From a virus, in IMG/VR virus record IMGVR_UViG_3300032242_001988, positions 1 to 25,494 of that record: a stretch of DNA of 25,494 bases, one strand, 5' to 3'. Below the pieces are notes generated by a model. The model saw nothing but the letters and a program-made list of their open reading frames with translations, was not told the origin of the DNA and made no database searches. How positions within the stretch are numbered: position 1 is the first letter of the stretch; every line of letters starts with the position of its first letter. The position numbers and the translations under genes were made by a program. Shown here piece after piece: positions 11,485 through 12,862 of the stretch.

Positions 11485-11946
11485 TTATAGTTTAAAAAAT
11501 TTTACATATTTGGTATCAATAAAATAAAACAAAAGGTTGTCTTTCTTGTATCTGTCGTAGGTTCTTTTAAGTTGCCAATGTTCAAATGTATTGTCTCTTA
11601 TAGATGCAAAGTGTGTTCTATCCTTGCTAAGAATAATATGAACATTAGGCTTATCTTTCTTTGAGTTGTATCCAGTAAATGAATTAACAATCATAGTTTT
11701 ATAAGGCCAATTTGTTAAATCAAAATCAGCACCACTATGCTTAACCTCAACAATTAACCTTTGATTATCCTTTGTTATAAATAAATCCCCTTGGTCAGCA
11801 TACCTAGAAAAAGCACCAACCGCATGAGGAGCTATGACAAGATCTGGCATCCCTACCTCATACCCATGCTTTTCAAAATATTCCTTGAATAATACGACAG
11901 CCTCTTGTGATTTTATTAATCTCTCTTTAAATTGTTCGTAGTTCAT
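11485..11946 (-). CDS. Putative PD-(D/E)xK endonuclease next to methyltransferase
   Basis: A 153-residue protein with the restriction-endonuclease-fold pattern DQGDLFIT ... LIVEVKHS: Asp54, Glu67 and Lys69 would bind metal and catalyse cleavage. It begins 20 bases inside the end of the methyltransferase gene, so the two are tightly linked. It could be the restriction partner of that methyltransferase, a phage nuclease for host DNA, or a resolvase; sequence alone does not decide. No DNA-recognition domain is obvious. Confidence 0.6.
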   Translation of the reverse strand: MNYEQFKERLIKSQEAVVLFKEYFEKHGYEVGMPDLVIAPHAVGAFSRYADQGDLFITKDNQRLIVEVKHSGADFDLTNWPYKTMIVNSFTGYNSKKDKPNVHIILSKDRTHFASIRDNTFEHWQLKRTYDRYKKDNLLFYFIDTKYVKFFKL

Positions 11947-12862
11947 CCTCCATAAGTTTTATGGTCTTGAATAATTGTAATGCTACTTGTGGCACTATTG
12001 CATTACCATAGGCCATTATGGATTCTTTTCTCCATTTAGAAAAGGTGATAGAGTCCAATTGGCGGGGAAGCCCATCATCTCCTCCACAAATAGGGGGTTG
12101 AGTTGGGAATTGGCTGAAGTCAAATTCGGAGTCCCATTCAGTATCCTCGCTGACTGCTCTAGGCTCAGCCCCATCTCCTGTCCAGATCTTGTTATATTCT
12201 TTCCATCTGTCAGCGTTCTGTCCCCCTTGAAATCCCTCGTGCAAGGTGTTGGTAGCATCCTCATTATCGCCATTTGTTTTAATGGGTTCTGAAGATTTAC
12301 TCCCTTCTCCTTGTGCCTCTGTTGTGCCGCCTTGAATGTTTCTGGCATCCTTGGTGTGTTCCAATCGTAGGCCGATGGAGTTGGCAACAAACCAAACTCT
12401 GTCTCTTTTATGGGGAGCGTTGACGCTTGCAGCTGGAATAAGAAACGATTGGACTTCATATCCTTCCCTTTCCAAGTCAGCGTGCACCTCGTGGAATACC
12501 ATCCCTTCATTCCAACTAAGGAGTCCACGAACATTCTCGCCAATAACCCATTTGGGTTGGATTTCTTTAATTGCTCTAAGCATCTGAGGAAAGAGATGTC
12601 TTTCATCGTTTTTGCCGAGCCTAAGCCCTGCTGAGCTATATGGTTGACAAGGGAATCCCCCCGTAAGTATGTCAATTTCTCCTCTGTGAATAGAGAAGTC
12701 TGTTTGTTTAATGTCATCGTAACTAATTGAATTTGGGAAATGATGTTTAAGTACCTTTTGTCCGAATGGGTTTTTTTCGCAATGGAACACATTTGTCCAA
12801 CCCATCTTCTCGGCAGCTATTTCAAAGCCACCGATACCGCTGAATAAACTTCCGTGTCTCAT
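11927..12862 (-). CDS. dcm: DNA (cytosine-5) methyltransferase
   Basis: A 311-residue enzyme that transfers a methyl group from S-adenosylmethionine to cytosine C5 in DNA. Motif I is GSLFSGIGGFEIA (4-16), motif IV GGFPCQPYSSAG (68-79) with catalytic Cys72, motif VI ENVRG (109-113), motif VIII RDRVWFVA (153-160), and motif X AYGNAIVPQVALQLF near the end. The region between VIII and X (about 165-275) is the target-recognition part. The protein probably protects phage DNA from host restriction, or pairs with the nuclease gene that overlaps its end. A long second open frame lies inside it on the same strand. Confidence 0.92.
   Translation of the reverse strand: MRHGSLFSGIGGFEIAAEKMGWTNVFHCEKNPFGQKVLKHHFPNSISYDDIKQTDFSIHRGEIDILTGGFPCQPYSSAGLRLGKNDERHLFPQMLRAIKEIQPKWVIGENVRGLLSWNEGMVFHEVHADLEREGYEVQSFLIPAASVNAPHKRDRVWFVANSIGLRLEHTKDARNIQGGTTEAQGEGSKSSEPIKTNGDNEDATNTLHEGFQGGQNADRWKEYNKIWTGDGAEPRAVSEDTEWDSEFDFSQFPTQPPICGGDDGLPRQLDSITFSKWRKESIMAYGNAIVPQVALQLFKTIKLMEDELRTI
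12016..12717 (-). CDS. Long alternative-frame ORF inside the methyltransferase gene (possible overprinted gene)
   Basis: In the +1 frame within the methyltransferase gene an open frame runs from an ATG at 12717 (MTLNKQTSLFTEEK) for 233 codons; an in-frame ATG at 12792 would give 258. The product has protein-like features: two copies of a phrase, GLLPTPSAYDW and MLPTPCTRDF, the segment WYSTRCTLTWKGK, and an end NPLFVEEMMGFPANWT that looks like methyltransferase motif IX. From memory, phage proteins with SLFTEE, LLPTP repeats and MGFPxxWT ends are common beside or inside dcm genes; I could not verify this. If real, it may partner the methyltransferase. The alternative is a chance frame kept open by methyltransferase constraint. 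Confidence 0.45.
   Translation of the reverse strand: MTLNKQTSLFTEEKLTYLRGDSLVNHIAQQGLGSAKTMKDISFLRCLEQLKKSNPNGLLARMFVDSLVGMKGWYSTRCTLTWKGKDMKSNRFLFQLQASTLPIKETEFGLLPTPSAYDWNTPRMPETFKAAQQRHKEKGVNLQNPLKQMAIMRMLPTPCTRDFKGDRTLTDGKNITRSGQEMGLSLEQSARILNGTPNLTSANSQLNPLFVEEMMGFPANWTLSPFLNGEKNP

Follow-up and report, generated by a model that had tools for sequence, protein, structure and literature searches.

Multispecific C5-cytosine DNA methyltransferases (C5-MTases) of SPbeta-type phages carry, within a single chain, a contiguous series of several target-recognition modules, each about 40 residues long, immediately ahead of motif IX. Other enzymes of the class, such as M.EcoHK31I and M.EaeI, are naturally composed of two polypeptides; the small chain of M.EcoHK31I was reportedly found by Lee, Kam and Shaw in 1995 to come from a different frame within the large-chain gene, and the genes of M.AquI are not known to be nested. 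In canonical C5-MTases, a small domain carries both the recognition domain and motif IX (PMC3404938). The small chain of the two-polypeptide enzyme M.EcoHK31I holds motif IX alone and its large chain motifs I-VIII and X, together with the predicted target-recognition domain (TRD), while M.AquI is split inside the variable region, with motifs IX-X in the small chain (PMC3404938).

Nested reading frames within phage cytosine methyltransferase (dcm) genes are partly on record. Paenibacillus phage Shelly gp56, labelled 'g55 internal gene', has already been annotated as a gene in the +1 arrangement described below, and other P. larvae phages possess two dcm features with the same nesting, the inner gene being labelled merely hypothetical protein or methyltransferase; we found neither functional nor selection evidence for it in the paper describing 48 genomes (PMC6070908). 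The PHROG 1008 record ('DNA methyltransferase') is matched by the protein studied here and by nested proteins of Paenibacillus, Lacticaseibacillus, Porphyromonas and Salmonella type, the dcm frame belonging to phrog_363, but it is silent on a nested, motif IX-bearing partner and its name is inherited from annotation. No description of this nested family was found in the searched literature, nor of the selection evidence, modular architecture and breadth reported here.

We analysed a stretch of viral DNA of 25,494 nucleotides (the window; positions 1 to 25,494 of IMG/VR record IMGVR_UViG_3300032242_001988), in which a dcm gene, alpha, encloses a +1-frame protein, beta. The pair resembles M.EcoHK31I in that the large chain has motifs I-VIII and X and the second chain lies in another frame, reportedly nested in that enzyme also. 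M.EcoHK31I, likened here by its description, is however a bacterial restriction-modification enzyme (YGGCCR) with its predicted TRD in the large chain, whereas pairs of the present type are mainly viral, with one to four exchangeable modules in the beta family and an alpha that has no ordered recognition region. As in M.AquI, two chains would form one C5-MTase. The tandem modules of about 40 residues before the motif IX-like end recall the SPbeta-type enzymes, although those are single polypeptides and here the modules, which may recognise DNA, are in a separate overprinted ORF. With good confidence, we propose that the locus specifies a nested two-chain C5-cytosine methyltransferase, in which one DNA encodes a catalytic chain, alpha, and a specificity chain, beta, in two frames.

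Results

The alpha gene and the frame nested within it

Alpha occupies positions 11927..12862 of the minus strand and encodes 311 aa. It matches phrog_363, TIGR00675 above its cut-off, and PF00145 over residues 1-177 (E 3e-44, the match ending at 179 of 324). Motifs I, IV (PCQ), VI (ENV), VIII and X occur in order as invariant columns of alignment A3, and the catalytic domain with motifs I-VIII (aa 1-162, 12377..12862; LFSGIGG, GGFPCQP, ENV, RDRVWFVA) was delimited from A3 and an AlphaFold2 (AF2) model. This model is confident over most of residues 2-162, less so at the active site and neighbouring loops, and confident again at the C-terminal motif X helix (AYGNAIVPQVALQLFKTI, 11930..12007), which is conserved in A3. 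Its Foldseek match to M.HhaI (E 8e-14) and M.HaeIII is limited to the catalytic domain, about 170 columns. Residues 165-285 (12008..12370), which lie opposite the beta modules and motif IX-like segment, are predicted to be unstructured (pLDDT below 50) and evolve with the codon phase of beta; alpha is variable in A3 up to about residue 250. We looked for motif IX in the C-terminal parts of alpha proteins and did not find it. By motif content and model, alpha is predicted to be a C5-cytosine DNA methyltransferase chain lacking motif IX and an ordered recognition region. Because a downstream ORF (11485-11946, 153 aa) starts within the last 20 bases of alpha (11927-11946), the gene lies in a tight operon.

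The beta frame was recognised by its homologues, by the shift in wobble position described below and by phrog_1008 (E 1.5e-24). As the original prediction had it, the ORF runs on the minus strand from ATG 12717 to a stop at 12016 (12016..12717, 233 codons), or for 258 codons from ATG 12792 in the ORF list (12016..12792), a less likely start; the entire stop-free run is 266 codons. The phrases to which that prediction drew attention, LLPTPSAYDW, MLPTPCTRDF and MGFPANWT, are all present. The N-terminal part of beta (aa 1-109, 12391..12717; WYSTRCTLTWK...RFLFQLQ) lies opposite alpha motifs IV-VIII and has invariant residues L67, W73 and W82. It is followed by two proposed target-recognition units, module 1 (aa 110-153, 12259..12390; LLPTPSAYDW...) and module 2 (aa 154-205, 12103..12258; MLPTPCTRDFKGD...), and by a segment resembling motif IX, LNPLFVEEMMGFPANWT (aa 206-222, 12052..12102), in which M215, G216 and P218 are invariant.

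Across the family, beta modules begin with LxTP, frequently with D(W/Y/F), and a C-terminal LNPxFVEEMMGFPxNWT then closes the protein. From 97 beta proteins we cut 238 modules of about 40 residues, one to four per protein. Module families recur in different slots, that of module 1 being the largest (47 copies, in slots 0-3 of different proteins) and that of module 2 occurring in slots 1 and 3, so the modules behave as exchangeable cassettes. The proposed likeness of MGFPANWT to motif IX is supported when the beta end is aligned by hhalign with five canonical motif IX regions (P = 3.6e-4), LNP...GFP pairing with canonical LT...GFP, and is weak on its own (probability 37%); an HMM built from the five canonical sequences barely detects the beta end. 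Sequence searches of the PDB with beta, its profile and its C-terminus gave no match, as did searches for the family in Pfam and NCBIfam, and the AF2 model of beta, based on 39 sequences, is poor (pLDDT 49).

Openness of the +1 frame

The 266-codon run was never reached when the synonymous codons of the window's dcm gene were permuted 1000 times (mean 109, maximum 256), and recoding with synonymous codons drawn from neighbouring genes gave a longest +1 run of 160. The +2 frame is ordinary (36 codons, permutation p = 0.56). That so long a frame is unlikely by chance thus held up, although the premise of AT-rich DNA did not, the dcm gene having 44% G+C. Routine stops in the +1 frame of related dcm genes had been named, jointly with a lack of homologues outside dcm, as what would count against a second protein; there were no such stops in 100 distinct homologous genes, all of which had permutation p<0.05 and 94% p<0.005, as against 3% with p<0.05 in the +2 frame. 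A locus from Rhodoplanes (67% G+C) has an open run that is not significant taken alone.

Three control single-chain dcm genes with their own motif IX (L219, L224 and L225, from Klebsiella, Staphylococcus and an NgoMIV-type system) do not have an open +1 frame. Two further canonical single-chain genes with their own motif IX and no beta match (L223, 1959-3416; L226, 1917-3410) have +1 runs of 144 and 165 codons (p 0.008 and <0.002), so run length alone is not diagnostic of beta.

Selection on the two frames

Substitutions were tallied by dcm codon position in 25 independent pairs. Counts at positions 1/2/3 were 24/16/150 upstream of the overlap, 135/65/323 in its first half (alpha motifs IV-VIII), 489/152/165 in its second half (beta modules and motif IX-like segment) and 45/14/108 downstream. 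The fast position therefore passes from the dcm third position in alpha-only DNA to the dcm first position, which is the beta third, in the second half, a shift expected if beta is translated but not if the frame is a by-product. The second half also shows more change at position 1 than at position 3 in bacterial Bacteroidota-type loci (1167 vs 993, p 1e-4), Firmicutes-type loci (233 vs 129, p 3e-8) and Proteobacteria-type loci (299 vs 231, p 2e-3), with p-values that are approximate because sites and pairs are not wholly independent; pairs opposing the switch number 6 of 23 in the bacterial set and 2 of 10 in the Proteobacteria set. Change at position 3 in the first half is below that of alpha-only DNA in all four sets (0.150 vs 0.306 in Firmicutes-type loci, approximate p 9e-15), so beta constrains the first half too.

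When the same codons are read in both frames, pairs of modules have a mean identity of 66% in beta against 41% in alpha, and identity is higher in beta for 1946 of 1953 pairs. Identity to the nearest relatives is 90% and 80% for beta, against 82% and 67% for dcm. We considered and rejected the idea that the LPTP repeat is a mere +1 shadow of dcm VAN(S/T)/ATN(T); the codons correspond, yet beta is the better-conserved frame over them, so the shadow runs from beta to dcm and not the reverse. The substitution patterns show that the +1 frame dominates protein coding over the second half of the overlap, and both frames bear the marks of protein-coding selection. Together with the absence of +1 stops, these patterns support the overprinted gene pair originally envisaged, and we conclude from them that the beta frame is a real coding sequence.

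The start of beta

Conservation among homologues begins near ATG 12717. In the Bacteroidota phages this ATG is formed by an alpha Asn codon and the G that follows it; the Asn codon at this site is AAT in 63 of 63 genes, while elsewhere in these genes Asn before G is AAT in 62%. The 14 Firmicutes-type loci place the beta ATG at alpha codon 62-72, and in 12 of them an anti-Shine-Dalgarno match lies upstream, among the strongest 1-5% of gene positions; against synonymous shuffles, about p<=0.05 was reached in only six of the 14. This Shine-Dalgarno (SD) signal is clear by position and moderate by shuffle.

Distribution

A search with beta (P0001) retrieved 478 relatives among viral-contig stretches, and each fetched viral locus with an alpha match has beta in the same +1 register. 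Nested beta also occurs in bacterial genomes of Bacteroidota, in Paenibacillus and Lacticaseibacillus phages, in Salmonella, Enterobacter, Rhodoplanes and Nostoc plasmid loci, and in assemblies labelled Bacillota, Phycisphaerales, Dehalococcoidales, Parcubacteria, Chitinivibrionales and Burkholderiaceae, several of which are metagenome bins. Similar proteins do, as originally suggested, accompany phage dcm genes, phrog_1008 being the beta family and Shelly gp56 one of its annotated cases. Independent copies outside dcm genes, which it had been suggested should be sought, were not found with beta itself, the A1 profile or the Paenibacillus and Salmonella beta proteins as queries; wherever alpha and beta were both located, beta was nested. 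The case for coding is unaffected, since the tests for selection are independent of that search. By these comparisons phages and bacteria that are only very distantly related share the arrangement, and one stretch of DNA has long been under two coding demands.

Some loci depart from the pattern in their annotation or integrity. In KT997847 (L130, 1291-2127), a short annotated dcm is followed by a 'cytosine-specific methyltransferase' that is the beta frame, and the alpha N-terminus and remainder are in different frames, through a frameshift or a sequence error. In L239, L247, L268 and L269, alpha and/or beta switch frame within the gene relative to close relatives, which reflects either errors in the sequence or a genuine change in how the two frames are related. 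Four Bacteroides elements (L134, L135, L208 and L215) have in-frame stops in alpha and none in beta. The stops are all TGA where read, mostly at sites where relatives have Trp (LAAE*MGW, FSR*RQASIKGYG), and these codons are possibly read through as Trp, or else alpha is decaying with beta kept.

Stop codons at the catalytic cysteine in relatives

In the nearest relatives (L002-L004) and many others, an insertion of 6 or 9 nt interrupts alpha precisely at the junction of GGFP and CQP, for example at 2524-2550 in both L002 and L004 and at about 2741-2767 in L115 and L117; it is found too in L277-L300, L302-L309, L316 and L318-L321, and the window itself is without it. Once chance matches that have no alpha domain are set aside, the insertion opens with a stop codon in 33 of 33 distinct genes (21 TAA, 9 TGA, 3 TAG), and the codon before TGY is in every one YYN with at least one C (CCA 10, CTA 8, CCT 4, CTG 4, TCA 3, CCG 2, CCC 1, CTT 1), giving the pattern CCN-stop-(stop/sense)-YYN-TGY. 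All examples come from metagenomic contigs; none was seen in the top-ranked isolate-phage matches, although these were not inspected nucleotide by nucleotide. The insertion requires nine changes when placed on a tree of 198 alpha sequences.

Beyond the stop the alpha frame remains open, ENV is kept in all 33 genes, and substitutions at positions 1/2/3 number 225/134/386 over the first 85 codons and 95/83/198 in the C-terminus. Beta reads through the insertion in its own frame in nearly all stop-bearing genes (the exception is L292), and the stop owes its T to the third base of a beta codon, a position at which T is used in just 18% of comparable beta codons. Three accounts of the stop were rejected: that alpha is dead in these relatives, given that alpha-phase constraint persists past the stop; that translation reinitiates in the third frame, which is mostly closed within 4-44 codons; and that beta depends on the stop, given that it usually has its own upstream ATG. 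A 7-nt insertion at the same site in L323 (7937-7966; TGA A TCA) shifts both frames and creates ATGA; it probably arose by a one-base indel from an L300-like TGATCA insertion, or else alters the start of beta.

The CCN-stop-YYN context makes these genes candidates for a natural in-frame stop-hop. The tRNA-Pro would leave the CCN before the stop and re-pair 6 or 9 nt downstream on YYN, through G-C or G-U pairing with anticodon NGG, yielding GGFPCQP with no extra residue. Readthrough of the stop, or initiation of the downstream part in some other way, are rival accounts. Stop-hops are known from synthetic constructs, and no natural in-frame case was known as of a 2016 review (PMC5009743).

Discussion

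Our comparisons establish for beta protein-coding selection, nesting conserved across phyla, modularity and conserved starts, and from these and the architecture of alpha we infer that the two chains associate, recognise a target and methylate it. Alpha would contribute the SAM-binding catalytic domain with its catalytic Cys and motifs I-VIII, as well as the motif X helix, and beta would provide what alpha misses, one to four tandem modules of the form LPTPxxxD... and then the motif IX-like segment. The modules are the proposed target-recognition domains through which beta would choose the target, the assembled enzyme would methylate phage DNA, and swaps of modules would alter methylation specificity. 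Beta is very probably the target-recognising subunit of an enzyme of the M.EcoHK31I kind, as its gene architecture and the precedent of that enzyme suggest; that alpha is predicted to be unstructured exactly beneath the beta modules supports beta as the supplier of the recognition part.

The arrangement may have originated from a single-chain ancestor whose gene was broken up by frameshifts; beta would then have grown backwards across motifs IV-VIII, and alpha forwards as far as motif X, across the stretch that holds the modules and motif IX. The way in which the wobble phase changes along the gene agrees with this model of splitting and mutual extension. A more comprehensive reading, in which an ancient, reciprocally overprinted methyltransferase has its modules shuffled in the nested frame and close relatives of the window translate alpha by a natural stop-hop, is one that we offer tentatively, as falling somewhat short of probable.

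Beta could instead be a real protein with a role outside the methyltransferase, perhaps in DNA binding, anti-restriction or regulation, and its poor structural model, its weak motif IX statistics and the lack of Pfam or NCBIfam matches would agree with this. We consider it unlikely, because the modules and motif IX-like end of beta fall just where alpha is without motif IX and an ordered recognition region, because every located beta lies within an alpha of this type, and because M.EcoHK31I provides a precedent. It is less likely still, and indeed rather improbable, that beta exists only as the C-terminal part of an alpha-beta fusion produced by programmed +1 frameshifting. Such a fusion would bring motifs I-VIII, recognition modules and motif IX into the right order in one chain, and a single chain was probably the ancestral state, but synonymous codon choice preserves a separate start for beta, which has SD-like sites in the Firmicutes-type loci as well; beta is also constrained upstream over motifs IV-VIII, which a fusion does not need, and a non-exhaustive look revealed no conserved slippery site at the end of the alpha domain. 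The least tenable explanation, that constraint on dcm amino acids and codons happens to exclude +1 stops without there being a second protein, draws on the bias that dcm imposes on this frame (permuted genes keep runs of about 100 codons) and on the two long runs in genes lacking beta, but we regard it as already refuted, its probability being negligible, by the 100 of 100 genes that surpass their own permutations, the shift of the wobble position to the +1 frame, the better conservation of modules in beta than in alpha, the beta start codons and SD sites, and the three canonical controls without an open frame. The two-chain methyltransferase with beta as its specificity chain is the reading that we prefer.

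Long same-strand overlapping genes have seldom been proved in prokaryotes. More than 200 homologous loci, from phages and several bacterial phyla, here permit a test of coding from sequence alone, in which the fast codon position visibly switches frame inside a single gene. If beta is the specificity subunit, many phage and bacterial methyltransferases have been annotated minus half of the enzyme, and predictions of specificity made from dcm alone would fail for them. The stop at the catalytic cysteine of relatives offers a direct route to testing natural stop-hopping, and the modules may represent a ready system with which to re-target cytosine methylation.
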